Shown here: one piece after another, positions 1-13,357 of the stretch
How positions within the stretch are numbered: the first letter of the stretch is position 1
Layout of the letters: every line of letters begins with the position of its first letter
NCBI RefSeq assembly: GCF_012676905.1
Contig: NZ_CP051428.1
Coordinates: 3,744,001 to 3,808,000, forward strand
Length of the DNA stretch: 64,000 nt
DNA from: Paenibacillus albicereus
GTDB taxonomy: Bacteria; Bacillota; Bacilli; Paenibacillales; Paenibacillaceae
Direction of reading: 5' to 3'
The notes under the pieces: generated by a model
What the model was told of the DNA's origin: nothing
The model's database searches: none
The model's input: the letters and a program-made list of their open reading frames with translations, nothing else
Translations under genes and position numbers: made by a program

Positions 1-754
1 AGTAGACGTCGGCGAGGAACGTGTCGATGCCCTCCTCGATCGTGAACGTCCGGCAGAACAGCCCGATCGTGCCCTGCTTTTCGCGCGGATCCTGCGCGCG
101 CTTTGCGGCGAGTGCTGGCGCCTTGTCGCCCGCATGCCGCGGCCACGCCATGACGTCCCGCCAATCCGCGTACATCGCCAGCACGGCGTCGACGTCAAGC
201 AGCCCCCCATCGGCAAGATGCAGCTCCGGCTCCGCGTCCTTGGAGCAGCTGGGCAGGTACATGAGCCGGTGGACGTCGAACGTCGTCTTGTCCATGTACT
301 CCATGCCGATCTGCTCCGCTAGCTTGCGGGCGACGGCCGCATACTCGTCGGGCGACAGCGGCCGGCTGCAAGGCGCGATCAGGCGATACTTCGGCGCCGC
401 CGGCCGGTGGCTATGCGTCGAGTAGATGGCGTAGGCCGTGCCGCCGAGCACCAGCTCGACCGAGAAGAGGAAGCTGTCGTCCGCCCGGTCGATGTCAAGC
501 GTGATCAGGCTGCGCGTGTCGACGTTCTCCTTCTTGCGGCGGCCGCCGCGGACGAGCCCGCCCACGAAAGCCGGGCCGTCCTTTACTTTGCCGCGCTCGG
601 CGTTCGACATCTTGTCGTATTGCGCCATCGTCTCCGCCGTCCGGCGGACGCGCTGCAGCCGCTCGACGAACTCGGCCCAGGTCAGGTATTCAGGTTTCCA
701 CGAGACGTCGGCGCGGTGCTTGCCGAAGCTGATATCGAGCTCGATGTCTTGCAT
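1..754 (-). CDS. VapE-type phage primase/helicase, N-terminal part (cut by window edge)
   Basis: The reading frame opens at an ATG at 754 and stays open to the window edge, giving about 251 residues. The sequence resembles the N-terminal domain of phage 'virulence-associated E' proteins, which combine a primase-polymerase-like domain with a C-terminal helicase. Visible hallmarks are the acidic motif LDIDRAD (around residue 85) and the STHSHRP segment (around residue 115), followed by a stretch of the type RLIAPCSRPLSPDEY. The first of these matches the metal-binding DxD expected of archaeo-eukaryotic-type primases. The helicase part is outside the window. The likely role is initiation of prophage DNA replication, fitting the DNA polymerase and ssDNA-binding genes upstream in the same operon. 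Confidence 0.82.
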   Translation of the reverse strand, partial: MQDIELDISFGKHRADVSWKPEYLTWAEFVERLQRVRRTAETMAQYDKMSNAERGKVKDGPAFVGGLVRGGRRKKENVDTRSLITLDIDRADDSFLFSVELVLGGTAYAIYSTHSHRPAAPKYRLIAPCSRPLSPDEYAAVARKLAEQIGMEYMDKTTFDVHRLMYLPSCSKDAEPELHLADGGLLDVDAVLAMYADWRDVMAWPRHAGDKAPALAAKRAQDPREKQGTIGLFCRTFTIEEGIDTFLADVY

Positions 755-766
755 AGGTTCACTTCC

Positions 767-2317
767 TTAGGCCGGTTGTGCGATCTTGATCTTGCTGCGC
801 TTCTTCTTCTCGGTGAGCTTAGCTTTCTCGAACGCCGCGACGAAGGCGGCGACGTCCGGCGGCGGCGGGGCGTTCTTCATCCCTCGGCACTGGACGATCC
901 TTGTGCCGGATACCTCCATCGTATGGTAGGGCTCGTCCAGCGCCGCCGCTCTCCGGATGAGGAGGATCGTCGTCTCGCCCTTGGCGTAGCGATCGGCGTA
1001 CCCGCCGACGCAGTGCGATAGGGCCTTGCCCTCATCGAAGAGCTCGACGCTGCTGACAGCCGGCCGGATGATGAGTCCGTCACGCTCGAAGCCGTAACGC
1101 TTCAGCAGCTCCGGTAGCCGTTCGGCGATCTGCTTGTTGACGCGTTCGTCGTTCACGAGCTTCAGCGCACGACCCGCGAGCTGATGCGCTTCGTGGAGGT
1201 TGTTCGGAAAGAGGACACCGGGCCTGGTGATGTCGCGGCCGAGCTCGCGGCACTCCCGGAGGTAGTCGCGCCAGTCAATCAGCACGGGCGAGCCGGCCGA
1301 GTAGCGGCGCGGATCCCGACGCGCTTGCTTCGCGATATATTTTTTGAGGACAGGCAGCGGCGCGTGTTCGCTCAGCGCCGTCAGTCGCTCTGCATTGAAA
1401 GGGTCGACAAGATCGCAGAGCGTCCGCGCCTCCTCCCAGCTGTAATTGGAACCGTCCTTTTTGGAGATCTGGTACGAGCGGAGCGCGCGCGGCCCGATCG
1501 CGCCGGCCTTGCGCATCTGCTTGATCTCGGCTTTGGTCAGGCGCAGCACGGCCTCAGGCGTCTTGCCGCGCCAGTTGATGGCGCCGTACGTCGAGCCGCC
1601 CGTCAGCTTCGAGACGACAAAGCTGCGGAGCCCGGCCTTGGTGAGGAACTCCATGACGTCGCCGTAGCGCGCCGCCAGGTCGAACGTCTTGACGTAGTCG
1701 TTGACCTCGTAGCTCTCCCACATGCAATACCGAAACGGCGTGCCCTCGACCGCTCGCCGGATGTTGGCTCGGCTGTGGAAGCAGGGCTTGTAGTCCATCG
1801 ACCGCTTCGCCTCCGAAAAGACGCTTGATGTAGCCTGCCAGTTGATGTAGCGGCTCCAGTAGTCGCGGCGCAGCATGCGGCCGCCCTGACCCCACTCGAA
1901 CAGATACATGGCGACGGGCTTGATGACCGTCTCGGTCTCGCGGTAGTTGCCGGAGTAGTCGCGCAGCATGTAAAAGCCACGCGCGATGATCGCCTGCGGG
2001 TCGATGGTCGACTTTTCGTACCAGATCAGGTACGCCCCGTCGATCAGCCTCTTCCGGCCGCGGCCGGACGCCTTGACCCGGCAGGCCGAGCGGCAGAACG
2101 GGCACTCCTCGATCTTGCCGTGCCGGAGCCCGTCGCTGTGGTGCTCGAGCTTGCAGTGCGTGCAGTATGCGATCTGCTGCCTGCCCTCCCGGCTGGTGAA
2201 GAGGTACCGGCTGCTGGCCAGCACCTCGTCCGTGCAGTAATCTCGGATCTCATCGCTGATGTCGGAGGGGAAATGCCGCATGAACTCGTTCTCATAAAAT
2301 CGGTTCTGCTTCGACAT
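767..2317 (-). CDS. PcfJ-like protein
   Basis: This 516-residue protein starts at an ATG preceded by a run of G residues (GTAGGGGGTCATT). The C-terminal segment LSHCVGGYADRY followed by TILLIRR is the typical PcfJ signature found in phages and conjugative elements. The N-terminal part has two Cys pairs (YCTHCK and CPFCRSAC, residues about 50-85) that look like a zinc ribbon. PcfJ proteins have no firmly established biochemical function and are usually found beside PcfK-type genes, as here. It lies between the primase and the PcfK/AcrIIA9-like gene in the early operon. Function in this phage is unknown; a nucleic-acid role is suggested only by the putative zinc ribbon. Confidence 0.8.
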   Translation of the reverse strand: MSKQNRFYENEFMRHFPSDISDEIRDYCTDEVLASSRYLFTSREGRQQIAYCTHCKLEHHSDGLRHGKIEECPFCRSACRVKASGRGRKRLIDGAYLIWYEKSTIDPQAIIARGFYMLRDYSGNYRETETVIKPVAMYLFEWGQGGRMLRRDYWSRYINWQATSSVFSEAKRSMDYKPCFHSRANIRRAVEGTPFRYCMWESYEVNDYVKTFDLAARYGDVMEFLTKAGLRSFVVSKLTGGSTYGAINWRGKTPEAVLRLTKAEIKQMRKAGAIGPRALRSYQISKKDGSNYSWEEARTLCDLVDPFNAERLTALSEHAPLPVLKKYIAKQARRDPRRYSAGSPVLIDWRDYLRECRELGRDITRPGVLFPNNLHEAHQLAGRALKLVNDERVNKQIAERLPELLKRYGFERDGLIIRPAVSSVELFDEGKALSHCVGGYADRYAKGETTILLIRRAAALDEPYHTMEVSGTRIVQCRGMKNAPPPPDVAAFVAAFEKAKLTEKKKRSKIKIAQPA

Positions 2318-2326
2318 AATGACCCC

Positions 2327-2713
2327 CTACCCGAGCAGCGCATCGAAGTCGAAGTCTTCATCCTCTTCGACCTCTGGCGCCGATGGCGTCTCCGGCTTGG
2401 CCTCAGCGGGCGGAGCTGCGGGCGCTGGGGTGGCTGGGGCCGGCACAGGCTCGGCGAAGTACTTGACGACGATCGCAAAGCCATCCGCATCCGAGAGGAC
2501 GGCAACGTTGCCGACCTTCTGCTTTTCGGCGGCCTTGCGCATGCTGTCCAGGCTGCGCGTGATGGACTTGCTCTCGGCCAGGACGTGGACGGCGAAGCTC
2601 GGGTCAGCCTCCAGGTGCTGCAGCAGGAACTCGCCGATGACCTTCACGTAGCCTTCGTTTTTCGCGCTGGCCATCTCGGCCTTGATCTTCTCAATTGCCT
2701 TGTCGAGACTCAT
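2327..2713 (-). CDS. PcfK/AcrIIA9-like small protein (candidate Cas9 inhibitor family)
   Basis: A 128-residue protein with a helical N-terminal domain (residues 1-90) and an Ala/Pro-rich linker ending in a strongly acidic tail (EVEEDEDFDFDALLG). The segments GEFLLQHLEADPSFAV and KKVGN-like KQKVGNVAVLSDADGF fit my recollection of the PF14058 family, named PcfK-like and also annotated as the Cas9 inhibitor AcrIIA9 family. The neighbouring downstream gene encodes PcfJ, the usual partner. Family membership rests on recalled sequence pattern, not a search. If correct, anti-CRISPR activity would still need showing, because many family members are untested. The acidic tail resembles that of the ssDNA-binding protein at 5.7-6.3 kb and could bind a shared partner. 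Confidence 0.6.
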   Translation of the reverse strand: MSLDKAIEKIKAEMASAKNEGYVKVIGEFLLQHLEADPSFAVHVLAESKSITRSLDSMRKAAEKQKVGNVAVLSDADGFAIVVKYFAEPVPAPATPAPAAPPAEAKPETPSAPEVEEDEDFDFDALLG

Positions 2714-2738
2714 TTCTCATCATCCCTTCTATTTGTAT

Positions 2739-3335
2739 TTAGGAGCAGTTTCCGTTCAGGATACAGACATCGGCCGACAGCTTGATGACTGCAGGCAGGT
2801 TCGGATTTACGGGCTCGAAGCCAGTCAGATCAACGCCCAGCTCCTGCAGCTGGCGATATGCCTTGTCGCCGCTGCGGCTGCCTTCTACGATGGCCAGCAC
2901 TTCATCCGAGACCTTGACCAGCGCCTTGTACTCCTTGATCACCGGGGCAATCGAGCTTTCCACGATGCTGTATGCTTCCTCAAGGCCATCATGCAGGCCA
3001 TTGGTTCCGAGATCGAGTAGATTCGTACGCGCCCAAATAGCATTTTCCTGAATAATATCTCGACGCATTGCTGTAAGGTGGCGCCCAATATCTCCGACCA
3101 GCTGCGAGAAATTCCATGCTTTTGCGTACCTCGGATGTCGCTCTTGTACAGCAAGCAGGGCTGTATGCAAGCTGGACGCGCTCCGTTCGATCGGATCGAG
3201 ATCCTTATATAGCTGGTGTATGACCGGCGTAAAAGCGACTTTCAGCGCGTCTAGAACCTCTTTTTTCAATTCCGCCTTCCGTTTCAATGCTTTCGCATTA
3301 ATGAAATCGTATAGATCAGCTTTTCGAATCGCCAC
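2739..3335 (-). CDS. Hypothetical phage protein
   Basis: I do not recognise the family. The frame is open from further upstream, but the best start is a GTG at 3335 with AGGGAGG eight bases before it; this gives 198 residues and avoids overlap with the polymerase gene. The protein is predicted to be mostly helical with no membrane segment, and contains Cys residues only near the C-terminus (VCILNGNCS). It sits between the polymerase and the PcfK-like gene in the early operon and has a lower GC content than both, suggesting a separate acquisition. No function is proposed. Confidence 0.6.
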   Translation of the reverse strand: MAIRKADLYDFINAKALKRKAELKKEVLDALKVAFTPVIHQLYKDLDPIERSASSLHTALLAVQERHPRYAKAWNFSQLVGDIGRHLTAMRRDIIQENAIWARTNLLDLGTNGLHDGLEEAYSIVESSIAPVIKEYKALVKVSDEVLAIVEGSRSGDKAYRQLQELGVDLTGFEPVNPNLPAVIKLSADVCILNGNCS

Positions 3336-3349
3336 AGGAACGGCCTCCC

Positions 3350-5329
3350 TCAGTCTTTTTGATAGAATTCGCACTCGAACCCCGCTGCCGCAAGCGGCAG
3401 CCCAGGCGCCCAGTCGATCGGCTCTCCCATGAGAGCCGTGACCCGCTCCAGCAGCCCGTCGTCGCTATCTGCATCGATGACCACCTCGTCGTGAACGTGC
3501 ATGACGATCTCCAGCCCTGCACGATCAAGCCGCAGCAGCGTCTCCGCCAGGCAGTCCCGCGCGATCGCCTGCACCAGGTTCTCCACCAATCGGCCGCCAT
3601 AGGTCCGCTGCTTCTCCCACTTCTTCTTGACCTGATCCATGCCCCAGAAGCTCAGGCATTCTTTTTGAAACGGCTCTTTGTCCTTCGGCCGAATCGTCTC
3701 CATCTTCACTTCCGGCTGCACGTAGGCGAGGCTGCGACCGCTCGGCAAGTCAGCAAACAGGATGCCGCCGGCGTAGCGATACTGGATGCCGTGCTTCAGT
3801 TTAACCGTGGACTTCGTCCGCACGGCTTCGATCGCCGCCTCCTCCGCCGCATACCACAGCTTCCGGATGTTCGGATTTGCATCGCGCCATTGCCGCACGA
3901 GCCGCGGATACTCCTCTGGATCGATTTCCCTCTTGCTGTCCATAGCCTCGAGCGCGCCGGCGCCGCCCTGGAAGCCGCACGCGAGCTCTGCGACCTTGCC
4001 GAACGGCCGGTATTTGTAGTTGTCATGCCCTTTCACGATCGTCTCGAGCGGAACGCCGAACATACGGGACGCTGTCGCTTCATAGATGCGGCCGTGCGTC
4101 CGGAACACCTCGAGCTTCCACTCCTCGTCCGCGATCCAGGAGATGACGCGGCCCTCAATAGCCGCGAAGTCGTCTACGATGAAGCGCCGCCCTTCCGATG
4201 GAACGAAGGCCGTCCGGATCAACTGGGAGAGGACGAACGGCGGCGGGCCGAAGAGCAACTCCAGCAGCTCGAACTCCCCCGCCCGCAGCAGCTCCCGCGC
4301 CAGGGCGAGATCGGGAATCTTGTTTTGCGGCAGGTTTTGGACTTGGATGAGCCGGCCGGCCCAGCGCCACGTCCGGTTAGCGCCGCAGAACTGCAGCAGC
4401 CCCCGCGCCCGATCGTCGGCGCAGATCGTCCGTGCCATAGCGTTGTACTTGTCGACGCTCGTCTTGCTCATCTCCTGCCGCAGCTCGAGCATCCTACGGG
4501 TCTCGTCGTCCGGAGCCGCGTCCAGCAGCGCTGGCATCTGGTCCTTCGCCATCCCGTTGGGCGTCTCGAGGCCCCGCTCCGCCAGCCAGCCCTTGAGCTG
4601 CGCCAGGCTGTTCGGGTTGTCCAGCCCGGTCAGCTCCTGCGCCTCGGCGATCAGCCTGGCCCCGTACTGCTCGTCGCAGGCAATGGCCTGATGGATGAGC
4701 TCGCGGTCCAGCCGCACGCCTCGATCGTTGATCCGCTGATCGATCGCCCAGAGCTCCCACTCCCGCGCCCGGACCGGGAAGCGCGCCAGCTTACGGCGAA
4801 CCTCTCGCTCGACGACGACGTCCTGCCGGTTGTAGGCGACGTAGTCAGCCCATTTCTCCGGCGCGTGATGGGGCAAATTGCGCTCCCGCCCGCCGTTTGC
4901 TTTCGTCGGCTTGCACGGCACGCTGAAGTACTTGATCAGCGCCTTACCCTTGGCGTCTTTCTTCGCGTCCAGCTTCAGCACGTCGGCCGCACCGTCCAGC
5001 GAGCCAGGCAGCCCGAGCGTCAAGGCCCAAACCGATGTGCATTGCCACTGCTCCGCCGGCATCGGCTGGCCGAACCACTTGGTCAAGCACGTCCGCTCGA
5101 AGGCGGCGTTGAAGGCCGTCTTGGTGACCGCAGGATCCGCCAACGCGGCGAGAACGTCACCCGGCACGTCCTCCATGTCGGTCAGGTCGACGACCTGCAC
5201 CGGCTCGTCATCCCAAGCGTAGGCGAACAGCAGGATCTCGAAGTCCGAGGCCTCGACGTACCGATGGACGCCGGACTTGAGCAGGTCGATCGAGCTGTAC
5301 GTCTCGATGTCGATCTGGAGGATCCGCAT
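3350..5329 (-). CDS. Phage DNA polymerase, family A (3'-5' exonuclease plus polymerase)
   Basis: A 659-residue protein with a proofreading exonuclease domain at the N-terminus (DIETYSS around residue 7, NAAFERTCL around residue 75) and a family A polymerase domain. Polymerase motif A is seen as VDDFAAIEGRVISW, motif B around KVAELACGFQGGAGAL, and motif C as MHVHDEVVIDA with the HDE metal-binding residues. The 5' nuclease domain of bacterial PolI is absent, as is usual for phage replicative enzymes. The gene starts at an ATG at 5329 with GAGG six bases upstream, just after the stop of the small membrane protein gene, so the two are probably translationally coupled. It should carry out replication of the prophage genome. 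Confidence 0.95.
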   Translation of the reverse strand: MRILQIDIETYSSIDLLKSGVHRYVEASDFEILLFAYAWDDEPVQVVDLTDMEDVPGDVLAALADPAVTKTAFNAAFERTCLTKWFGQPMPAEQWQCTSVWALTLGLPGSLDGAADVLKLDAKKDAKGKALIKYFSVPCKPTKANGGRERNLPHHAPEKWADYVAYNRQDVVVEREVRRKLARFPVRAREWELWAIDQRINDRGVRLDRELIHQAIACDEQYGARLIAEAQELTGLDNPNSLAQLKGWLAERGLETPNGMAKDQMPALLDAAPDDETRRMLELRQEMSKTSVDKYNAMARTICADDRARGLLQFCGANRTWRWAGRLIQVQNLPQNKIPDLALARELLRAGEFELLELLFGPPPFVLSQLIRTAFVPSEGRRFIVDDFAAIEGRVISWIADEEWKLEVFRTHGRIYEATASRMFGVPLETIVKGHDNYKYRPFGKVAELACGFQGGAGALEAMDSKREIDPEEYPRLVRQWRDANPNIRKLWYAAEEAAIEAVRTKSTVKLKHGIQYRYAGGILFADLPSGRSLAYVQPEVKMETIRPKDKEPFQKECLSFWGMDQVKKKWEKQRTYGGRLVENLVQAIARDCLAETLLRLDRAGLEIVMHVHDEVVIDADSDDGLLERVTALMGEPIDWAPGLPLAAAGFECEFYQKD

Positions 5330-5332
5330 GCG

Positions 5333-5431
5333 CTACCTCAGCAGCAGGATGGCTACCAGACCGTAGAAAGGCAGAGAGAACATTAAGGCGTAGAGGAAGC
5401 CCCGGAAGACGCTGCCGCCGCGGTTACGCAT
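5333..5431 (-). CDS. Small phage membrane protein, 32 residues
   Basis: An ATG at 5431 overlaps the end of the 65-residue gene by eight bases and opens a 32-codon frame ending in TAG four bases before the polymerase ATG. The product begins with a short basic stretch (MRNRGG) followed by a single hydrophobic helix (FLYALMFSLPFYGLVAILLL), typical of a one-pass membrane peptide. The tight overlaps on both sides argue that it is a real translated gene. I cannot name a family; similar tiny membrane proteins are common in phage early operons. Confidence 0.55.
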   Translation of the reverse strand: MRNRGGSVFRGFLYALMFSLPFYGLVAILLLR

Positions 5432-5621
5432 CAGCCTGACCTCTGCCACGCGGACGCGACTTGGTCGGCTGCTCCGTCACGGCGCGTTCCGGATCCCAGC
5501 CCTCCTTGATGCGGTGCAGCAGCGTATTGGCGAGGATGCCGTTAGCTGCTGCGCGGTCGACTAGGGCCTGGAGCTCCGGGGAGCGCTTGCGACCTGGCTT
5601 CATGCGTGTTTGAGTTGTCAT
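5424..5621 (-). CDS. Small basic phage protein
   Basis: A 65-residue basic protein preceded by a strong ribosome binding site (AGGAGGAACCAAAC before the ATG). The N-terminal region (KPGRKRSPELQALVDRA) and the segment GILANTLLHRIKEGWDPERA look like a compact helical DNA-binding or adaptor protein, but I do not recognise the family. It lies between the ssDNA-binding protein and the small membrane protein in the early operon. Confidence 0.6.
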   Translation of the reverse strand: MTTQTRMKPGRKRSPELQALVDRAAANGILANTLLHRIKEGWDPERAVTEQPTKSRPRGRGQADA

Positions 5622-5681
5622 GTTTGGTTCCTCCTAGAGTTTGGTTTTATGGGAAGGGGCCGCGAAGGCCCCTACGATGGA

Positions 5682-6263
5682 TCAGCTCATGAAGTCGTCA
5701 TCGTCTCCACCGAAATCGTCGTCAAACTCCTCGCCGGCGAAGTCCTCGTTCACGCTGCTGCGGCCAGCCAACGATTCTCCGTCCTGGACCTTGACGATGT
5801 TGTTCAGGCCGACGCCGATGCCCTTGCTCTTGTTGTCGTAGGTGTAGAAGTTGAGGGAGACGCGAGCATAGCAGCCGGAGTAGACTTCCGTCGTGTCTGT
5901 AATCTCGACGAACTTGGTGTTGCCTACCGAATCCTTGCCGGCTGGCTTCGCGATGCCGGGCTTCGTGTTGGCGTAGGCGTTCAGGTAGTAGTGGCCGGCG
6001 TAGTTCTCGTCGTCAGGCTTTTCCTCATCGCCATCATGCAGCGGCAGCTTGAAGTTGGTGGGCAGCTTGCCTTTGTACTTCGCCGCGGCTTCGACTTTCA
6101 ACGCATCGATAATTGCCTTGATCTTGCGGAGCGTCTCCTTGTCAGACTTGGGGATGAGCAGCGCGCAGCTGTATTTGAGCTGGCCTGACTCGTTCTCCTT
6201 GGGCTCCCAGATATTCGCGTAGGAAAGACGTACCTTGCCGGTGACCATTTTCGTTTCTGCCAT
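5682..6263 (-). CDS. Phage ssDNA-binding protein, DUF2815 family
   Basis: This 193-residue protein matches the DUF2815 family, known from phages such as Enc34 to be single-stranded DNA-binding proteins with an OB fold. Recognisable features are the N-terminal TGKVRLSYANIWEPKE, the central GHYYLNAYANTKPG, and the segment YSGCYARVSLNFYTYDNKSK. It ends in a very acidic tail (FDDDFGGDDDDFMS) of the sort that ssDNA-binding proteins use to recruit replication partners. Translation starts at 6263 behind GAGGAGCTCGATCTAAC. It lies upstream of the polymerase and downstream of the DUF2800 nuclease, a common phage replication-recombination layout. Confidence 0.88.
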   Translation of the reverse strand: MAETKMVTGKVRLSYANIWEPKENESGQLKYSCALLIPKSDKETLRKIKAIIDALKVEAAAKYKGKLPTNFKLPLHDGDEEKPDDENYAGHYYLNAYANTKPGIAKPAGKDSVGNTKFVEITDTTEVYSGCYARVSLNFYTYDNKSKGIGVGLNNIVKVQDGESLAGRSSVNEDFAGEEFDDDFGGDDDDFMS

Positions 6264-6299
6264 GTTAGATCGAGCTCCTCGTAATTGGATTGGGGTATG

Positions 6300-6632
6300 T
6301 CAGCCGATCGGCATCGGGCCGAGATCGTTCAGCACGAGCTCGCCGCGTCCGCCGTACCGGGTGGTGTAGGTGATGGTGAGGCTACTGCCAGCGCCGCCAG
6401 CAACCTTGTAGGTCTCAATGTCGATTTTCTGGCCGACCTGCTTCATGAACCGGTCCAGAATCTTCTCATGGACGTGGATGGTCTCGCCGTACTGAGCCGG
6501 GATTTTCGTCCGCGGTCGCGACTTCTGGACGCGCAACCATTCCTTGCGAGCAGCCTCTTCTCGCTTCCGACGGCGCCGCGCCTCGTCCAGGGCTTCACGA
6601 TCGGCGAGCGCTTTTCGGGTCCGATCGTTCAT
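6300..6632 (-). CDS. Hypothetical phage protein
   Basis: A 110-residue protein whose ATG directly follows the stop codon of the DUF2800 gene, indicating coupled translation. The first half is a charged helix rich in Arg, Lys and Glu; the second half contains a beta-rich segment (SSLTITYTTRYGGRGEL). No family is recognised. Position between a nuclease and an ssDNA-binding protein suggests a replication or recombination accessory role, but that is inference only. Confidence 0.6.
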   Translation of the reverse strand: MNDRTRKALADREALDEARRRRKREEAARKEWLRVQKSRPRTKIPAQYGETIHVHEKILDRFMKQVGQKIDIETYKVAGGAGSSLTITYTTRYGGRGELVLNDLGPMPIG

Positions 6633-7826
6633 TCAAAAGTCCTCCCCTTCAAAGTCGCCCTCCACGCTGTTCAGCTCCGGACGCTTGTCCGTCTCCGGAA
6701 CGAGCGCCGGCTTTCCGGGCGGCTTTACAATTAGGCCGCCGAGTATTTCAACCAATTCTTTTTTACCGATGCTGCTTTCTAGCTTTCCGATACCGAGAAT
6801 CTCAGGAGGCTTGAGATACTTCTCCGGGACCAAACCTGCTTCGGAAAAAAGTTGAATTGCCTGATTCTTATCCGTAATCTTCCGGTCGCTTCGGCCCTCG
6901 ACCAGCTTCCAGCCCGGTACCTGCTGGCCGGCCTTGGTCGCCGTGAAGGCGTAGTCGGAGACGTCTTTTGCCCAGGCGGACAACTGCTCCGCGACGTGGA
7001 GGATGGAGCCGATCTCCTCCAGCGAGAGCGTCACCGGGTCGCGGAATTCGTAGGCAAGCGCGGCCATGTTGGCGTCAGCGCGGGCCCGGCAGCTGCCCTT
7101 GATCTTGCACCAGCGGCAGTGATCGCCCGCGGCGAAGTCGCCTTTGCCGGCATGAGCCAGTGCGGCCGCCGGCTTCACGATCCTCTCCGCCCAGTGCAGC
7201 AGCTCGTCGATCGGCAGCGGCTCCGTGCTCACGCTGTCGAGCCGCGGCTGGACGATCGTGCCGTGCACCTCGTGGATGTCGTAGAGGTAGCTGTAGTCGG
7301 ACCAAGCGCCGAGGCCGTACAGCCGTATCTGTGGGTTGCCGATCGCGCTGACCGGTACGCCCTTGCCGTACTTGAGGTCGATGACCTCCATCACGCCGTC
7401 GGCGATGATGACGACGTCGCCAGTGCCATACCCCTCGGGGACCCACTCCGTGAAGTCGAGTCGCGCCTCGAAGAGGATGACGGCGTCGGCGCTCCGAGCC
7501 TTGGCGTCCATGAAGCGCTCCTCGACCACCTCGACGTAGGCAGCGACGGCCGCCCCCATCTCAGCGTTGTAATAGGGCTCTACGGTTTCAAAGGTTTCGA
7601 TCTCACGATCAAGGCGATCGACATCTGCGCCCTCCTGCAATTGCCGGCGAAGGATCAGCTCCGACAGCTCATGCGCCGCCGTCCCCTCATTGGCGAACTC
7701 GCTGCGCGTGTCCGGGATGCCCTCCTGGGCGCGGGCGCTCGGCGGGCAGTTAATCCACTGGCTCGCCTTGGACGCCCCGAGGAGCGCATGCCCGCGCTCG
7801 GCGTGCGCCGGTGTCGTCAGTCCCAT
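6633..7826 (-). CDS. DUF2800 family phage nuclease (PD-(D/E)XK / RecB-Cas4-like)
   Basis: The 397-residue product has the motif order of a RecB-like nuclease: GTAAHELSE (motif I His) near residue 50, then GTGDVVIIADGVMEVIDLKYG (core Asp and Asp-x-Lys) near residues 135-155. It belongs to the DUF2800 group found in phage replication modules. A single Cys near the N-terminus (INCPPSA) and three in the C-terminal CRWCKIKGSC segment reproduce the 1+3 Cys pattern that binds an iron-sulfur cluster in Cas4 and AddB. The gene overlaps the upstream 101-codon gene by ten bases. It probably processes DNA ends during phage recombination together with the DUF2815 protein. Confidence 0.85.
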   Translation of the reverse strand: MGLTTPAHAERGHALLGASKASQWINCPPSARAQEGIPDTRSEFANEGTAAHELSELILRRQLQEGADVDRLDREIETFETVEPYYNAEMGAAVAAYVEVVEERFMDAKARSADAVILFEARLDFTEWVPEGYGTGDVVIIADGVMEVIDLKYGKGVPVSAIGNPQIRLYGLGAWSDYSYLYDIHEVHGTIVQPRLDSVSTEPLPIDELLHWAERIVKPAAALAHAGKGDFAAGDHCRWCKIKGSCRARADANMAALAYEFRDPVTLSLEEIGSILHVAEQLSAWAKDVSDYAFTATKAGQQVPGWKLVEGRSDRKITDKNQAIQLFSEAGLVPEKYLKPPEILGIGKLESSIGKKELVEILGGLIVKPPGKPALVPETDKRPELNSVEGDFEGEDF

Positions 7827-8122
7827 GGGATCCCCCGCCCGTGCATCGCGTCGTGCAGCTGTCGGATCTCCTCCTGCAACTTGTCCACCTGCTCCTCGGC
7901 TGCGATGGCGCGCCGGATCGCATGCGGCCAGCCGACGCGGGCCTGGACGATGAAACGAGCGTCATCAGGATCCAGCCGCCCCTCGCTATGGGCGATATCA
8001 AGAAAGAGCTTGTCGCAGTGGCCGCACATACACGGTTTTGTCCGGATCGGCGCTGGCGCGGCGTATTCGCAAATGGCCAGATCGGCCTCCAGGTCCCTGA
8101 CCTGCTCCAACTGGGCCGCCAC
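7817..8122 (-). CDS. Hypothetical phage protein with CxCxxC motif
   Basis: A 101-residue protein with a possible metal site (CMCGHCDKLF) in the middle and a C-terminal coiled-coil-like helix (EEQVDKLQEEIRQLHDAM). Its stop overlaps the start of the DUF2800 nuclease and its start touches the stop of the next upstream gene, so it is translated as part of the operon. No family is recognised. It may be a small zinc-binding accessory protein. Confidence 0.6.
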   Translation of the reverse strand: MAAQLEQVRDLEADLAICEYAAPAPIRTKPCMCGHCDKLFLDIAHSEGRLDPDDARFIVQARVGWPHAIRRAIAAEEQVDKLQEEIRQLHDAMHGRGIPWD

Positions 8123-8559
8123 TAGATCTGCTCCAGCTCGGCCTTGAACGCGAGGCGCTTGTCGTCCGGGACGCCGGTGATGTTGGCGCTGCCGTACTTG
8201 TCGAGCAGCGCCTTGATGGCCTTCTTGGCCTCGACGCCTTTCTGCCCGGCCCCGGCTGCGATCGTCCTGAGCTCCACGTCCGTCGGGATCGGCTCGGCGG
8301 CGTCGCCGTCGAACTCCGAGTAGTCGCCGCCAGCTTCGGCACCCGTTTCCTCCACAGCTGCCGACTCTTCGGCCGGCTCCTTCACGGCCGCCTTCGGCTC
8401 ATCCGCTTTCGCTGCGCGGCTGCCCCGCAGAGCACGCTCCGCTTTCGGCGCCTCGGCTACGGGAGCTGCTTTGCCCGAAACGAGGCTGGCAGCGAGGACG
8501 GAGAGCTCGGCTACGACTTCTGCGGCGGATTCGCCGTTGATCTGAATTTGAATTGCCAT
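8122..8559 (-). CDS. Hypothetical acidic phage protein
   Basis: The frame is open upstream to 8763, but the supported start is the ATG at 8559, which has AGGAGG ten bases before it; this gives 145 residues. The protein begins with a short beta-type segment (MAIQIQINGESAAEVV), has a long Ala/Glu/Pro-rich disordered linker, and ends in a helical domain (about residues 95-145) containing AGAGQKGVEAKKAIKALL and DKYGSANITGVP. This C-terminal part resembles small phage proteins found with replication genes, but I cannot assign a function. Confidence 0.6.
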   Translation of the reverse strand: MAIQIQINGESAAEVVAELSVLAASLVSGKAAPVAEAPKAERALRGSRAAKADEPKAAVKEPAEESAAVEETGAEAGGDYSEFDGDAAEPIPTDVELRTIAAGAGQKGVEAKKAIKALLDKYGSANITGVPDDKRLAFKAELEQI

Positions 8560-8624
8560 GTGTTGATGGCCTCCTTGTATAAGTAAATGAATGAATGCTA
8601 CAATGGCGGTGATTATGTCTTGCC

Positions 8625-8789
8625 TCAGCCCTGGACGGCTCCTACCCCGTCGAGGGCTTTTTTCATTTTGATCCGGGACGCCATACTGCGGTATTGCAAC
8701 CGGCAGGCCTCGCGCAGCTTGGCCGATCTCGTGGTCTCCATGATCTGCAGCAGATTTCCGCACGAGCGGATGCGCTGTTTTCGATTCAT
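8625..8789 (-). CDS. Small basic phage protein, 54 residues
   Basis: An ATG at 8789 is preceded by a very strong ribosome binding site (GGGGAGGTGAAAGC) and opens a 54-codon frame ending at a TGA at 8625. The product is basic and helical (for example TTRSAKLREACRLQYRSMAS) with two Cys residues. The strong ribosome binding site is the main support. No family recognised. Confidence 0.5.
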   Translation of the reverse strand: MNRKQRIRSCGNLLQIMETTRSAKLREACRLQYRSMASRIKMKKALDGVGAVQG

Positions 8790-8804
8790 GCTTTCACCTC
8801 CCCT

Positions 8805-8918
8805 CTAGTTGGCTTGCCGCGCAGCCCAGCGCTGCTGCGCCTGCGTCGCCTTGATCTGCAGCATCAGCATGCGCTCATCTAAGCTCATCTGCCGCCAGAC
8901 CCATCCGGTAATCTGCAT
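8805..8918 (-). CDS. Small phage ORF, 37 residues
   Basis: The frame is open further upstream, but the ATG at 8918 has AAGGGGTGAGG in front of it and gives a 37-residue product beginning MQITGWVWRQMSLDER. It overlaps the 3' end of the next upstream gene by 44 bases, which lowers confidence. Nothing is known about it. Confidence 0.35.
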   Translation of the reverse strand: MQITGWVWRQMSLDERMLMLQIKATQAQQRWAARQAN

Positions 8919-9108
8919 CGTCCTCACCCCTTTCGATAGAGTCAGGTACGAGTTCATATCTATCCCCTGTGAGCATCGCGGCCATAGCGAGCTTGCAGCG
9001 ATCCGGCAGGCCGGTTGCAGCCGGGTCAATCACTACGACTTCGCCATTGATGACCATTCGGTGCTCAACCACTACAAGCACAGGCCTCTGTTTTTTACTT
9101 TTGTCCAT
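8875..9108 (-). CDS. Hypothetical phage protein, 77 residues
   Basis: Start is either the GTG at 9111 or the ATG at 9108; GAGGTGA lies just upstream of both. The product has a beta-hairpin-like N-terminal half (RPVLVVVEHRMVINGEVVV) followed by a helical, acidic C-terminal half (SIERGEDDADYRM). It is the second gene of the leftward operon after the Cro-like regulator. No family recognised. Confidence 0.5.
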   Translation of the reverse strand: MDKSKKQRPVLVVVEHRMVINGEVVVIDPAATGLPDRCKLAMAAMLTGDRYELVPDSIERGEDDADYRMGLAADELR

Positions 9109-9119
9109 CACCCATCACC

Positions 9120-9395
9120 TCACCCCAAGATATGCGGCTCGGTTTGTCCGACTTGCTGATCCGGAATATTTCCTAAGTTAAACTTAGAGTTTGCTTCAAA
9201 AAAATTTATGTCTCTCACGCTGCAGCCAAGTATTTCAGCAATGCGGGCAGCGTCCCGCATACGGATCTCCTCGGGATTGGCTTCCCATTTCGCGTAAGTG
9301 CTCGCATGGACGCCAATGGCGCCGGCTAAATCCTGCTTGCTCAGCATCCTGTACGCCCGCCATTCACGTAAGGTACGTTTGTCATCCACCACCAT
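9120..9395 (-). CDS. Cro-like XRE-family regulator
   Basis: A 91-residue protein whose residues 5-62 form a helix-turn-helix of the XRE type (SKQDLAGAIGVHASTYAKWE). It starts at 9395 behind AGAAAGGTGGTGA and is the first gene of the leftward early operon, divergent from the CI-like repressor. In lambdoid-type switches this position is held by Cro or an early activator. A perfect copy of the 15-bp operator lies within its own 3' coding region as well as in the shared promoter region, so the gene itself contains a control site. Confidence 0.85.
   Translation of the reverse strand: MVVDDKRTLREWRAYRMLSKQDLAGAIGVHASTYAKWEANPEEIRMRDAARIAEILGCSVRDINFFEANSKFNLGNIPDQQVGQTEPHILG
9173..9187. promoter_or_regulatory. 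Operator palindrome inside the cro-like gene
   Basis: The 15-mer CTAAGTTAAACTTAG is a perfect inverted repeat (7+1+7). The same 15-mer occurs at 9435-9449 in the divergent promoter. It lies in the last third of the cro-like coding sequence. It is probably a secondary binding site for the phage repressor. Confidence 0.65.
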
Positions 9396-9427
9396 TCACC
9401 ACCTTTCTCCAACTTTCGACACGCCAA

Positions 9428-9456
9428 TCTTAACCTAAGTTAAACTTAGATGTCAA
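9428..9456 (-). promoter_or_regulatory. Leftward early promoter with embedded operator
   Basis: On the minus strand TTGACA (9451-9456) and TTAAGA (9428-9433) are separated by exactly 17 bases. The spacer is filled by the perfect 15-bp palindrome CTAAGTTAAACTTAG at 9435-9449. A repressor bound there would block RNA polymerase directly. This promoter drives the cro-like gene and the replication operon. Confidence 0.8.
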
Positions 9457-9508
9457 CGCAAAATGGGAACATTTTTTCGCCTTCATTAATGTTCGATTAG
9501 ATTAGACA

Positions 9509-9537
9509 TTGAAAACTTAGATTTACTGTGCTATAGT
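9509..9537 (+). promoter_or_regulatory. Promoter of the CI-like repressor
   Basis: TTGAAA (9509-9514) and TATAGT (9532-9537) are spaced by 17 bases. A half-operator AACTTAG overlaps the -35 side of the spacer (9514-9520), and a degenerate palindrome (CTAAAAAAACTTAG, 9591-9604) lies early in the repressor gene. This suggests autoregulation of the repressor. Confidence 0.7.
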
Positions 9538-9563
9538 TTAGAAAAACTCTAAGGAGAACCGCC

Positions 9564-10226
9564 GTGAACTCAATCGGATTCTCAGAAAATCTAAAAAAAC
9601 TTAGGATGGCAAAGGGATGGTCTAAATCTGAGTTGGGAAAACGTGTCGGAGTCTCTGACGTAACTATTGGTTACTGGGAGAGCGGTAAAACCGAACCGCG
9701 CATGGGAAAAGTGGAAATGGTTGCTGACGTGCTTGGCGTAACAACCGATGAGCTGCTTTTCAGCGAGCCCGTCGATCTACCGACCCAACCTGCGAAAAAC
9801 ATCACGATGCCGGTAGCCGCCTCGAATAGAGCCCCGTTATACGGATCTGTCGCGGCAGGAATACCGCTGGAGATGCATCCCGTGAATGATTTTGTGGAGA
9901 TTCCGTTGGGGATTGCGACACAATACCCACATGCGTTTTTGTTGCGCATAAATGGCGACAGTATGAATAAGATTGTCCCACACGGAGCCTACGCGTTGAT
10001 TGATCCATGCGAAAACGTCAGCAACGGCGAAATAGCAGCCGTAATAGTTGACAACGATGAAGCAACGCTAAAAAGATTCTTCCGCTTGCAAAACTCAATT
10101 GCTCTTGAGCCGGACAGCTGTAATCCCGATCATAGTGTTAAAATTATTGATGCCAGCAGCGGTTCGTCCGTAAAAATAATCGGGAAACTGGTATGGTTTA
10201 TGGCGGCGCCGAATGTTAAATTTTGA
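9564..10226 (+). CDS. CI-like phage repressor with S24 self-cleavage domain
   Basis: The 220-residue protein starts at a GTG behind AAGGAG. Residues 7-65 form an XRE helix-turn-helix (SKSELGKRVGVSDVTIGYWE). The C-terminal half is a LexA/CI-type peptidase S24 domain: a cleavage-site-like Ala-Gly (GSVAAGIP), the catalytic Ser in NGDSMNK and the catalytic Lys in ATLKRFF. Such repressors cleave themselves in contact with RecA after DNA damage, which would induce the prophage. It is divergent from the cro-like gene and followed 13 bases later by the recombinase gene, so repressor and recombinase are probably co-transcribed in the lysogen. Confidence 0.93.
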   Translation: MNSIGFSENLKKLRMAKGWSKSELGKRVGVSDVTIGYWESGKTEPRMGKVEMVADVLGVTTDELLFSEPVDLPTQPAKNITMPVAASNRAPLYGSVAAGIPLEMHPVNDFVEIPLGIATQYPHAFLLRINGDSMNKIVPHGAYALIDPCENVSNGEIAAVIVDNDEATLKRFFRLQNSIALEPDSCNPDHSVKIIDASSGSSVKIIGKLVWFMAAPNVKF

Positions 10227-10239
10227 GGGGGTCAATTAA

Positions 10240-11700
10240 ATGCGAGTTGCTGCCTATGTGCGCGTCAGTACAGATGAGCAAGCCGACAAGGGAAACTCTC
10301 TGGGCGAACAGCAAGAAAGGCTTGCCGCTTATTGCAAGGCTATGAACTGGGGCGCTCCTAAGTTTTTTATTGATGATGGTTATTCGGCCAAAGACCTGAA
10401 GCGACCAGCCGTAAAAAAGCTTATCCGAGAAGTAGAGGCCCAGAAATTCGACATCGTCTTGACAACAAAACTGGACCGGATGTCGAGAAATCTACTGGAC
10501 ATGCTCCAATTTGTTAAAATGCTTTCCGAAAAGAATTGCAACTATGTTTCTGCTTCGGAGGCTTTTGACACGTCGACAGCTGCAGGCCGGCTGGTCTTAC
10601 AGCTACTTGGTACATTTGCCGAATTTGAACGGGAAAGAATTAGCGAGCGCGTCAAAGAAAATATGCTATCCATAGCGAGAAATTCCGACAAGGCCATAAC
10701 AAACCCTTGCTATGGATATGATATAACAGGCGAAAAATATACTATAAATCCAGAAGAATCCATGAATGTATTATTAATGTTCGACTTAGCTGAACAGGGG
10801 TTAGGGTACCGTGCAATTGCGAAAGCCTTAAACGATACCGGCAGCAAGACCCGGGGTACGGCTAAACGTCCTGCAGTCCCGTGGAGCCCGGCCACGGTTA
10901 AGAAGCTCATGCACAACGAAGCGTTACGCGGCGTCATGATATATAACAAGCGTGAAAACAAAAACGGGAAGCTCGTCCTTCGGCCGAAAGAAGAGTGGAT
11001 AATTCGAGAGAATAATCATCCTGCAATTATCGGCAAAGAGCGGTACGAGGAGGTTAAAAAAATTCTGGACAGCCGAAAGCTGACTAATCGCCATGCAGAC
11101 AGCGAAACCTACCTTTTAACTTCCCTAGTAAGATGTGGCCATTGCGAGGCTCTTATGATCGGAAACACGGCTAGGTATGTCAGAGGACCAAAGCGCTACG
11201 AATACTTTCGATATACCTGCCAGACGTACACCAAACTTTCAGGCTGCTTTTATCATGCAGTGCATAGGGATGACCTTGAAAACAAGATCATTGAGTCGAT
11301 AAAACAACTGGCCTCGAACTCTCTGAAGGATATTCAAAAAATAAAGATAGCGAACTCCTCTTCCAGCAGCGAAGAGTTGGAGGATCTGAAGCGTCAATTG
11401 CAAAAAGTAAATCGGAGGATGCAGAAACAGATCGAGGCGTTCGAAGAGGATTTGATAACGGCGCAAGACCTCAAAATTGCTACCGCTAGAACCGAAAAAG
11501 AGCGATCTGAAATTGCCGCAGCAATAGATCGACTCGAGAGTAAAAAATCGAACGGAGGGGACGTGCAAAACAGAGTGCAGCGAATGCTCGGAGACGTGAC
11601 CAGCATTGATCGTGTAGTGGCAAAGCAAGCTATTCGGCAATTAATTGACTCCATCCAGATAACAAACGGAACTCAGATTTCGATAACGTGGAAATCATGA
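10240..11700 (+). CDS. Large serine recombinase (prophage integrase/excisionase)
   Basis: This 486-residue protein has the resolvase catalytic domain at residues 1-150 with the nucleophilic Ser in YVRVSTDEQ and the Arg-rich motif LTTKLDRMSRN. It is followed by a recombinase domain (about 160-260), a zinc ribbon (RCGHCEALM ... CQTYTKLSGCF, about 300-345) and a long coiled coil (about 370-450), the layout of large serine integrases. Start is an ATG at 10240 behind GAGGGGG. The gene ends 15 bases from the cotJC junction, as expected for an integrase next to its attachment site. Large serine recombinases excise the skin and SPbeta elements during sporulation, and the target here is also a sporulation gene. 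Confidence 0.95.
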   Translation: MRVAAYVRVSTDEQADKGNSLGEQQERLAAYCKAMNWGAPKFFIDDGYSAKDLKRPAVKKLIREVEAQKFDIVLTTKLDRMSRNLLDMLQFVKMLSEKNCNYVSASEAFDTSTAAGRLVLQLLGTFAEFERERISERVKENMLSIARNSDKAITNPCYGYDITGEKYTINPEESMNVLLMFDLAEQGLGYRAIAKALNDTGSKTRGTAKRPAVPWSPATVKKLMHNEALRGVMIYNKRENKNGKLVLRPKEEWIIRENNHPAIIGKERYEEVKKILDSRKLTNRHADSETYLLTSLVRCGHCEALMIGNTARYVRGPKRYEYFRYTCQTYTKLSGCFYHAVHRDDLENKIIESIKQLASNSLKDIQKIKIANSSSSSEELEDLKRQLQKVNRRMQKQIEAFEEDLITAQDLKIATARTEKERSEIAAAIDRLESKKSNGGDVQNRVQRMLGDVTSIDRVVAKQAIRQLIDSIQITNGTQISITWKS

Positions 11701-11715
11701 TTTTGTTTAGTCTCT

Positions 11716-11735
11716 TCAACGAATAGGATCGCCCT
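11716..11735. other. Prophage attachment junction (att half-site) in cotJC
   Basis: On the minus strand cotJC matches its family through the codons for Gly-Asp-Pro-Ile and then reads one Arg codon and a stop. The crossover therefore lies at or just after GGGCGATCC (about 11722-11731). The other hybrid site lies left of the window. Serine recombinases exchange at a central dinucleotide, so the exact core needs the second junction. Confidence 0.75.
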
Positions 11736-12096
11736 TGGCCGCGATATAGGTGGCCGTCCACGGCATGCCGGCCGCGTTGCTGTAGAACAGGTCTCCGCCG
11801 TGATTGACGAAGTCGGCGCCGAGCCCGGCCTCCCGCAGCTGGTCCGGCGTCGCGTCCTTCGTTAGCTTGTAGATCATCATCGCGATCATTTCCAGATGAG
11901 CGAACTCCTCCGTACCGATGTCGTTCAGCACGCCGATCACCTTGTCCGGAATCGTATACCGCTGGTTCAGGTAGCGGAGCGCGGCGGCCAGCTCCCCATC
12001 GGCTCCGCCGTACTGCTCGGTCAGGAACTTCGCCATCATCGGGTCGCATTTGCTCACCTTCACCGGATATTGGAGCTTCTTCTCATAGAGCCACAT
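11716..12096 (-). CDS. cotJC: CotJC spore coat protein (manganese catalase family), 5' two thirds, interrupted by prophage
   Basis: The 126-residue frame starts at 12096 behind AGGGGGGATGAGGG and matches CotJC closely from MWLYEKKLQYPVKVS through AAKGDPI. Intact CotJC is close to 190 residues, and the expected continuation (Ala-Asp-Leu ... Ala-Glu-Glu-Lys) is absent. Instead one Arg codon and a TGA follow, at the prophage boundary. The missing part includes some of the metal ligands of the manganese-catalase fold, so this fragment should not be active on its own. CotJC is a mother-cell-made inner coat component encoded with CotJA and CotJB. Prophage excision in the mother cell would restore the gene. 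Confidence 0.93.
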   Translation of the reverse strand: MWLYEKKLQYPVKVSKCDPMMAKFLTEQYGGADGELAAALRYLNQRYTIPDKVIGVLNDIGTEEFAHLEMIAMMIYKLTKDATPDQLREAGLGADFVNHGGDLFYSNAAGMPWTATYIAAKGDPIR

Positions 12097-12356: not shown

Positions 12357-12638
12357 TCACACCTGCCAGGGCCAGGGCATCTCGTTCCACTGCCACGGGT
12401 AGCGGGAGTAGCTGTGGCCGAAGTGGACGAGCGGCCCGTACTGCAGCTCGAACTGCTGCGCCACCGCCTGCCGCTTCTGGGCGAGCTGGTTGAACTGCTG
12501 GATCGCCTGCAGGTCTCCCGGATGCGTGTTCAGGTACAGGTTCAGCTCGACCAGGGCGAAGTCGAGCACCTGCAGCTCCTTCAGCCCCGCGCGGTAGGCC
12601 TCCTGGTCGAACGCCTGCTTCTGCTGCTCCTCGCTCAT
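12357..12638 (-). CDS. cotJB: Spore coat protein CotJB
   Basis: A 93-residue protein matching CotJB: the segment LQVLDFALVELNLYLNTHP and the aromatic C-terminal end (YPWQWNEMPWPWQV) are characteristic. CotJB is a small mother-cell coat protein encoded between cotJA and cotJC. Its start follows the cotJA stop by six bases. It is probably controlled by the mother-cell sigma factor SigE, as in Bacillus subtilis. Confidence 0.92.
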   Translation of the reverse strand: MSEEQQKQAFDQEAYRAGLKELQVLDFALVELNLYLNTHPGDLQAIQQFNQLAQKRQAVAQQFELQYGPLVHFGHSYSRYPWQWNEMPWPWQV

Positions 12639-12644
12639 CGCTCC

Positions 12645-13229
12645 TCAGCTCCTTCCGATTCCACAGCCGGGTTCATAGGGACTGTACAGCGCCGGCCACA
12701 ACGTGCCGAGGCGCAGCGCTTCCTCCAGCGGATACTGCGGCAGTCCCGTCGGCTGATACAGGATGTACTGGTTGGGCGGAACGACATACCGCCTCGCGAC
12801 GATCGGCGGGCACGGGTCGCAAGACCCGCGGTATGGAAACCACTCCCGGTAGCCCGCGCCCGGCACGCCCGGAGGAGGCGTCTCGCCCGCCTCTGCTGCC
12901 TGCGCGGCATATCCATGCTGCTGCCCGTATCCTGGCTGCTGCGCATACCCCGGCTGCTGCGCATACCCGGGCTGCTGCCCATACCCAGACTGCTGCCCAT
13001 ACCCGGGCTGCTGCGCATAGCCCGCCTGCTGCGCGTAGCCCGGCTGCTGCCCGTACGCGGCCGCCGCCGCCAGCTCCGCCTCGCTGCGGTACGGTGCGGC
13101 TGGCGGAGCGGCGCCGTATCCGGGCGCGCCGCCCGCGAATGCCGGAGCGCCCGGCGCTCCGCCGCCGGGCTGGCCGGCATAGCCGCCTTGGCCGCCTCCG
13201 AAAATCCCTCTTGCTGCCTGTAGCCTCAT
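12645..13229 (-). CDS. cotJA: Spore coat protein CotJA with an expanded Tyr/Gln/Gly-rich N-terminal region
   Basis: The start is an ATG at 13229 preceded by CAAGGAGGCAGGAC, giving 194 residues. Only the C-terminal part (about residues 145-190; PPNQYILYQPTGLPQYPLEE then LRLGTLWPALYSPYEP) is the conserved CotJA domain, which normally makes up most of a protein of roughly 80 residues. The preceding region is an imperfect repeat built on GYAQQP and GYGQQP (about residues 60-112), with a Gly/Ala/Pro-rich stretch before it. This low-complexity extension is encoded by near-identical codons and may vary in copy number between strains. Upstream bases CATACGGT (about 13305-13314 on the minus strand) resemble a SigE/SigK -10 box, but no convincing -35 was found. 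Confidence 0.85.
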   Translation of the reverse strand: MRLQAARGIFGGGQGGYAGQPGGGAPGAPAFAGGAPGYGAAPPAAPYRSEAELAAAAAYGQQPGYAQQAGYAQQPGYGQQSGYGQQPGYAQQPGYAQQPGYGQQHGYAAQAAEAGETPPPGVPGAGYREWFPYRGSCDPCPPIVARRYVVPPNQYILYQPTGLPQYPLEEALRLGTLWPALYSPYEPGCGIGRS

Positions 13230-13357
13230 GTCCTGCCTCCTTGCCCGGCCGCGCCTCGTTCCGTCGCTGCAGCGGCTGCAGGCCGGATGCTGTGCTGCTC
13301 CCTTTACCGTATGAGCAGGGGCTTTTCCAACTTGCCACTTTTGTTCCGACGGCAAAG

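Follow-up and report, generated by a model that had tools for sequence, protein, structure and literature searches.

A prophage interrupts the spore-coat gene cotJC of Paenibacillus albicereus. We analyzed a window of 64,000 nucleotides from this genome (contig NZ_CP051428.1, positions 3,744,001 to 3,808,000 of the forward strand, RefSeq assembly GCF_012676905.1), which holds the 5′ part of cotJC and the adjoining end of the prophage, together with the rest of the genome and a set of related genomes. The results make it probable that cotJC serves as the attachment gene of a temperate prophage which, in the manner of SPbeta, is excised precisely from the mother-cell genome during sporulation. 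Positions below are window positions unless they carry the prefix C1, which denotes the whole contig.

The two junctions of the split cotJC gene

A profile search of the whole genome (G000, a single contig of 5.17 Mb) gave three PF05067 matches in total: an intact manganese catalase elsewhere (a 314-amino-acid [aa] open frame) and the 5′ and 3′ parts of cotJC, which scored 154.5 and 73.5 bits, respectively, against a curated cut-off of 27. The match of the 5′ part covers 11722-12096 (minus strand), and its likeness to the family ends at about residue 125, beside a large serine recombinase (LSR) gene at 10240-11700 (plus strand), just as a first-pass annotation of the window had noticed. That annotation had also proposed that the missing 3′ part be sought left of the window, and it is present there, 27.6 kb away and in the same orientation as the 5′ part (C1:3716179-3716390, minus strand; PF05067 match at C1:3716200-3716394 on that strand). 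A missing 3′ part, one of the outcomes that the annotation had named as refuting its proposal, was thus looked for and did not occur. The two halves are separated by 39,348 bp, measured core to core.

Both junctions carry the 13-bp direct repeat GGATCGCCCTTGG (11726-11738 and C1:3716378-3716390), and when the flanks were joined through it, the frame was restored to an uninterrupted CotJC of 189 aa. This is also the length of 44 intact cotJC relatives (those parsed by script from 45 fetched loci; L194 was missed by the start pattern). Because both breakpoints coincide with the repeat and the frame is restored, and because the pattern is repeated in 31 further genomes, the split is not a matter of chance. 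The crossover dinucleotide is probably the GA at gene nucleotides (nt) 367-368, within the att core. The insertion thus falls within the coding sequence of a sporulation gene: cotJC, whose neighbors are cotJB and a cotJA-like gene, is cut at about codon 123. The features of this region are as follows.

11726-12096, minus strand: cotJC 5′ part, about 124 codons to the crossover (profile match and joint)
C1:3716179-3716390 of G000, minus strand, outside the window: cotJC 3′ part (profile match and joint)
11726-11738, unstranded: att core GGATCGCCCTTGG at the cotJC 5′ junction, shared by both junctions
12357-12638, minus strand: cotJB (PF12652)
12645-13229, minus strand: a gene that we take to be cotJA-like, from its position and C-terminal sequence

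Recurrence of cotJC insertions and constraint on the rejoined genes

Broken-up cotJC genes were found in at least 41 of 453 distinct genomes of the family and order (147 relatives and 394 family members, 88 being in both sets). Genomes were flagged by best match, so a split copy beside an intact one would be missed in the 306 family-only genomes. Thirty-two of the 41 broken copies were joined by script (29 two-piece pairs, the three-piece G372, and G135 and G103), and all 32 read through as 189 aa with no stop or shift. In each of the 29 pairs the same dinucleotide occurs at the same gene position on both ends; the joints of G075 and G329 were set at the shared dinucleotide. Three insertion sites emerged: site A, with GA at nt 367-368 (9 pairs); site B, with GA at nt 190-191 (16 pairs); and site C, with TA at nt 226-227 (4 pairs), where both ends also have AA at nt 229-230 in at least three of the four. 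Within the 394 family genomes there were 24 two-piece splits that join in frame and 1 three-piece split. Outside the order such splits look rare, as judged from best matches in 398 genomes sampled across the class.

Nine copies were left unjoined. In G162, G201, and G315 cotJC is frameshifted without an insert; G317 has a gap in a fragmented genome, and the cotJC pieces of G177 are at contig ends. G418 has two cotJC pieces and a group-B LSR, and G438 has a damaged split cotJC and showed no LSR in the 8 kb fetched. The other two were G067 and G119, and four more flagged genomes had distant paralogues only. A reading of the three frameshifted, uninterrupted genes as excision scars was unsupported; the frameshift of G315 is close to site B, yet it looks like a single-base loss rather than a scar.

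Some genomes hold more than one break. The cotJC of G372 is in three pieces (L035, L036, L037), cut by site-B and site-A insertions, and joins to 189 aa; its site-B recombinase was seen only in part, and a diverged intact cotJC copy is present elsewhere in that genome. An intact cotJC is followed by an extra 3′ piece in L050 (G119) and L051 (G067), and G426 carries three 3′ pieces and one 5′ piece on contigs C17 and C10. The extra pieces of G119, G067, and G426 suggest either repeated insertion or elements that carry a gene end.

At positions invariant in intact genes, the 29 rejoined genes had a mean of 0.08 changes per gene, versus 0.32 for the 44 intact ones (leave-one-out). The ratio of nonsynonymous to synonymous substitution rates (dN/dS) of rejoined genes to the nearest intact gene was 0 to 0.08 in 21/29 computable, many with dS above 1, and intact pairs gave similar values. 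For the P. albicereus gene the ratio was about 0.04, and both halves are undamaged. Rejoined cotJC genes therefore look as constrained as intact ones, which speaks against long decay and is compatible with recent insertion.

A recombinase group for each insertion site

Each of the three sites is served by its own LSR group. Serine recombinase genes are located at most about 3.5 kb from the junction, and usually immediately next to it, in 9 of 9 site-A, 15 of 16 site-B, and 4 of 4 site-C pairs; the site-B exceptions are G259, with a partial LSR, and G129, in whose 7-kb insert none was found. Identity within groups is 45 to 91% for A (10 sequences), 42 to 86% for B (13), and 40 to 96% for C (4), and between groups it is 18 to 35%. 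Of the 394 family genomes searched with the group-A alignment, 9 gave E < 1e-240 (G247 with two copies, for a total of 10), all nine of which carry the site-A split, and the next-best matches (8.8e-176 and weaker) are located elsewhere. Among 1451 records of named phages, no recombinase was more than 60% identical.

The two equal-scoring group-A LSR genes of G247 (C1:5651961 and 5688444 of that genome) are 36.5 kb apart in one 73-kb insert, either tandem prophages or an assembly artefact. Two site-C inserts, L063 (G290, about 14.5 kb) and L062 (G172, about 13.4 kb), are small islands in two genera with 96% identical recombinases and different cargo: one carries PrrC and a type I restriction system, the other a full-length Avs4. 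This pair is a defence island swapping cargo inside a coat gene.

Gene content of the prophage

The insert in the P. albicereus cotJC has the gene set of a complete-looking prophage. PHROGs matches were obtained among 20 insert proteins for small and large terminase, portal, minor head, scaffold, major head, head-tail adaptor, tail terminator, tape measure, tail fibre, holin, and amidase, and Pfam identified a family-A DNA polymerase and an SNF2-type helicase. The first-pass annotation had proposed a skin-like element excised during sporulation. The LSR at the junction, the candidate excision factor, and the mother-cell-like promoter element described below agree with the excision part of that proposal; the likeness to skin did not hold. 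Skin is a defective prophage, a kind that lacks particle genes, and here terminase, portal, capsid, scaffold, tape measure, and others are present. Since it has structural and lysis genes, the prophage is SPbeta-like rather than like defective skin. The LSR gene is full length with all three domains, and the repressor gene upstream ends 13 bp before it, so that the two probably form one operon.

1-11725, unstranded: prophage part in the window, with replication, regulation, and integration genes (structural and lysis genes left of the window)
10240-11700, plus strand: LSR of 486 aa, group A (Resolvase PF00239, Recombinase PF07508, Zn_ribbon_recom PF13408)
9564-10226, plus strand: CI/LexA-type repressor (HTH_3 and Peptidase_S24)
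9120-9395, minus strand: Cro-like helix-turn-helix (HTH) protein, encoded at the head of the divergent lytic-side operon (profile match)
8875-9108, minus strand: candidate recombination directionality factor (RDF) of 77 aa, conserved with LSR group A (coinheritance)

The replication region also encodes a PcfJ-like protein (PF14284; 767-2317, minus strand). Just inside the other prophage end, adjoining the cotJC 3′ part, two small HTH-like open reading frames with weak matches lie on opposite strands (L004:8400-8612, minus; L004:8585-8899, plus).

A small protein coinherited with the recombinase

The RDF candidate had no Pfam or PHROG match at E 0.01, and its predicted structure had a mean confidence (pLDDT, predicted local distance difference test) of 68 with two sequences. 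It recurs in 9 of 10 site-A elements, six of these nine small proteins being seeds of the profile that found them; at E < 0.01 the only match among other loci in the same comparison was the second copy of one site-A record (L078). The family, RDF-A, is present in 9 of 9 family genomes with a group-A LSR and in 8 of 385 others (one weak). Eighty IMG/VR loci, several of which are the same genomes again, gave a similar picture: RDF-A exceeded 50 bits in 13 of 15 loci with a group-A LSR of at least 670 bits and in one with a partial LSR, and none of the remaining 64 reached that score (two weak matches of 24 and 20 bits). All 15 site-B elements examined encode another, different small protein. These data indicated that each of the LSR groups A and B is accompanied by its own small protein, a candidate RDF.

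A promoter-like element before the RDF candidates and cotJ

Directly before the RDF candidate of P. albicereus stands the promoter-like element CAAGTCGGACAA-N9-CATATCTT, and CAAGTTGGAAAA-N9-CATACGGT stands in the same layout before cotJA.

9127-9155, minus strand: promoter-like element before the RDF candidate (conservation)
13306-13334, minus strand: element before cotJA (pattern match)

The group-A small gene is preceded by CAAGTCGGACAA-N9-CATAnnnT and elsewhere by GGnnGTCC-N14-CATAnnnT, in which the GGAC box is reversed and CATA keeps its place. For 16 regions upstream of group-A genes (9 genomes and 7 further IMG/VR loci), GT[CT]-N15-[CA]ATA fits 14 (shuffles: mean 0.4, maximum 2) and a looser pattern fits all 16 (shuffles: mean 0.5, maximum 3); in L251 the loose match lies 64 nt upstream of the gene, and the better match there is GTCC-N14-CATA. 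Neither pattern fits any of seven related small genes located away from a group-A recombinase. The reversed form was then found at all 15 site-B small genes, against a background of 48 in 2.86 million positions (1.7 per 100 kb). At site C the signature was seen in three elements, by eye only. Conserved coding sequence was ruled out as the source of the element, which, by eye, lies in different frames or outside genes among the elements.

A pattern devised to include both elements of P. albicereus has two zero-mismatch sites in the 5.17-Mb genome, one before the RDF candidate and the other about 77 bases before the cotJA start; six more species of the genus have the cotJ copy of the element. 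The pattern failed as a genome-wide promoter, since up to two mismatches gave 15 matches, the same as a reversed control, and it is the two exact sites alone that are conspicuous. A zero-mismatch scan of 50 genomes yielded 22 matches, of which 5 were at RDF candidates, 7 at cotJ regions (this genus), and 10 elsewhere; the reversed control gave as many. When a weight matrix built from phages of other genera was used, the best matches outside phage sites were those before cotJ in two species of the genus, except for one locus that had been brought in by the pattern itself. Upstream of sprB in SPBc2, AGACAAAC precedes CATACATATAAT at a different spacing.

Promoters read by SigE and SigK have a -10 region of the form CATAnnnT, and the SpoIIID site has the consensus RRACARNY. 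The latter fits all 10 forward boxes and 10 of 21 reversed boxes. For Clostridioides difficile, the SpoIIID site is given as KRTAACARK (PMC5025042). SpoIIID is encoded in the P. albicereus genome, and from these likenesses we infer that the RDF candidate may be controlled by a mother-cell sigma factor (SigE or SigK) together with SpoIIID. The first-pass annotation had proposed a check for a SigE or SigK promoter or an excision-factor gene near the recombinase. No SigE- or SigK-type promoter was supported before the recombinase or the repressor operon, where the best SigE score was no better than shuffles; the LSR gene lies in the repressor operon, and the conserved promoter-like element stands before the RDF candidate instead. 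Before the RDF candidates, too, the SigE consensus match was nonsignificant; their promoter case rests on conservation.

Proposed mother-cell excision and its alternatives

We propose that the LSR would be made together with the repressor in lysogens and that the small protein encoded at 8875-9108 would act as the RDF. Upon induction the RDF would be made from the lytic operon, and in sporulation it would be made from its own promoter by SigE or SigK, helped by SpoIIID. LSR and RDF would then recombine attL and attR at GA; precise removal would rebuild cotJC in the mother cell, and the forespore would keep the prophage.

Mother-cell excision is favored because the split gene rejoins in frame, as do all 32 joins at 189 aa in the family and order; because the RDF candidate is coinherited with the group-A LSR; because the element precedes both RDF-A and the different RDF candidate of the distantly related group-B LSR; and because SprB and CD1234 are published small RDFs under mother-cell control. 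Several results weigh against it. In-frame halves prove little alone: G129 joins in frame though no LSR was found in its 7-kb insert, G259 does so with only a partial LSR, and new insertions would look intact in any case. RDF-A occurs without a group-A LSR in seven genomes clearly and in one weakly, once beside an apparent tyrosine-recombinase remnant (by eye), and it was found neither in the stretch fetched for G137 nor in L252. The promoter patterns were drawn partly from the same sequences, so the shuffles flatter them. The cotJ element of P. albicereus is absent from the best 45 matches of the matrix scan, cotJ of other host genera lacks the exact element, and the fixed-spacing patterns do not fit sprB. 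Before the RDF candidates the SigE consensus scored no better than shuffles (P values of 0.06 to 0.93; 0.48 in this genome). The low rank of this genome's cotJ element and the nonsignificant SigE scan slightly lowered our confidence in mother-cell excision, a proposal drawn from sequence comparison.

It is rather unlikely, in our estimate, that this is an ordinary temperate prophage which uses a conserved coat gene as attB and leaves only on lytic induction, its lysogens sporulating without CotJC and tolerating its absence. LSR attB sites are often located in conserved genes, and the packaging, head, tail, holin, endolysin, repressor, and Cro-like genes are all those of such a phage. Moreover, C. 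difficile mutants of two CotJC-type genes are reported to show lower catalase activity and no significant coat defect. Against this explanation, the promoter-like element is common to distantly related LSR systems (18 to 35% identity) and resembles the cotJ upstream region of the host genus, and the constraint on the rejoined genes also argues against it. The box before the RDF candidate could instead be a phage operator or an LSR/RDF autoregulatory site, with excision following the phage cycle only, an explanation that overlaps with the preceding one. The element does sit in the lytic-side operon of this phage, and its assignment to a sigma factor rests on the CATA -10, the SigE consensus scan being nonsignificant. 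Nevertheless, the element is shared by mobile elements whose repressors differ to the eye and whose LSR groups are 18 to 35% identical, it matches a host promoter region in this genus, and a AGACAAAC box also lies upstream of CATA, at another spacing, before SPbeta sprB, for which mother-cell expression has been published. We regard an operator as unlikely.

A fixed, decaying insertion, in which cotJC is dead and its halves are remnants, appears highly improbable for P. albicereus. Decay does occur, as exemplified by the damaged split copy of G438, which has no LSR in the 8 kb fetched, and the partial LSR of G259 and the missing one of G129 fit the same course. However, the P. albicereus prophage has a full-length, three-domain LSR and intact att cores, and its cotJC halves are undamaged, with a dN/dS of about 0.04 to the nearest intact gene.

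Comparison with known intervening elements

SPbeta interrupts spsM of Bacillus subtilis, its LSR is expressed in vegetative cells, and the sprB promoter is a mother-cell promoter with a good -10 and an imperfect -35, sprB also being read from the lytic operon (PMC4191935). Like SPbeta, the P. albicereus element is a prophage in a spore-surface gene and encodes a small RDF, here a candidate from sequence (77 aa; SprB has 58). The target gene (spsM versus cotJC) and the size (134 kb versus 39 kb) differ, and recombination has been demonstrated for SPbeta, whereas the cotJC element is known from its genes. The skin element in sigK of C. difficile has a constitutive LSR, CD1231, and a 72-aa RDF, CD1234, under SigE and SpoIIID (PMC5025042). 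On paper the two elements share an LSR and a small RDF (a candidate here), but skin interrupts a sigma-factor gene and has 19 genes, whereas a structural coat gene is interrupted here by a complete-looking phage. Both SPbeta and C. difficile skin express the recombinase in vegetative cells and the small RDF in the mother cell, an arrangement that the P. albicereus element would match on paper.

The gin element in gerE of Bacillus cereus (PMC5595907), a nonphage island with LSRs and restriction genes, resembles the small site-C elements; it has three recombinases, and unlike it, the site-A element of the window is a phage. Yin in yabG of Clostridium botulinum, vfbin in spoVFB, and vrin in spoVR are likewise prophage-like or intervening elements in sporulation genes; their target genes are different, and recurrence at several sites with several recombinases is not described in the portions available. 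The first-pass annotation had counted a cotJC split as a third case after sigK and spsM. That count is too low, as spoVFB, spoVR, gerE, and yabG have already been reported. No report of cotJC as an interrupted gene was found among the open-access papers listed by literature searches, supplements aside. In a distant spore-former, C. difficile R20291, the CotJC homologue CDR20291_1465 adjoins prophage phi027 (PMC11222575).

With this analysis a spore-coat gene joins the few sporulation genes known to be interrupted, and possibly given back, by mobile DNA, and such insertions are common in one lineage. Candidate RDFs are named for two recombinase clades, along with a sequence signature through which the mother-cell hypothesis can be tested directly. 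We see about an even chance that cotJC acts as a hub of developmental recombination in the Paenibacillus-type order, at which at least three distantly related LSR lineages have their own sites and RDFs under the same mother-cell promoter signature, a SpoIIID-like GGAC box with a CATA -10. If so, prophages and small defence islands would all exit the genome of the mother cell once the coat gene is required. These insertions allow comparative study of why mobile elements target genes that serve only a cell about to die, and of how the same control is reached by distantly related elements.

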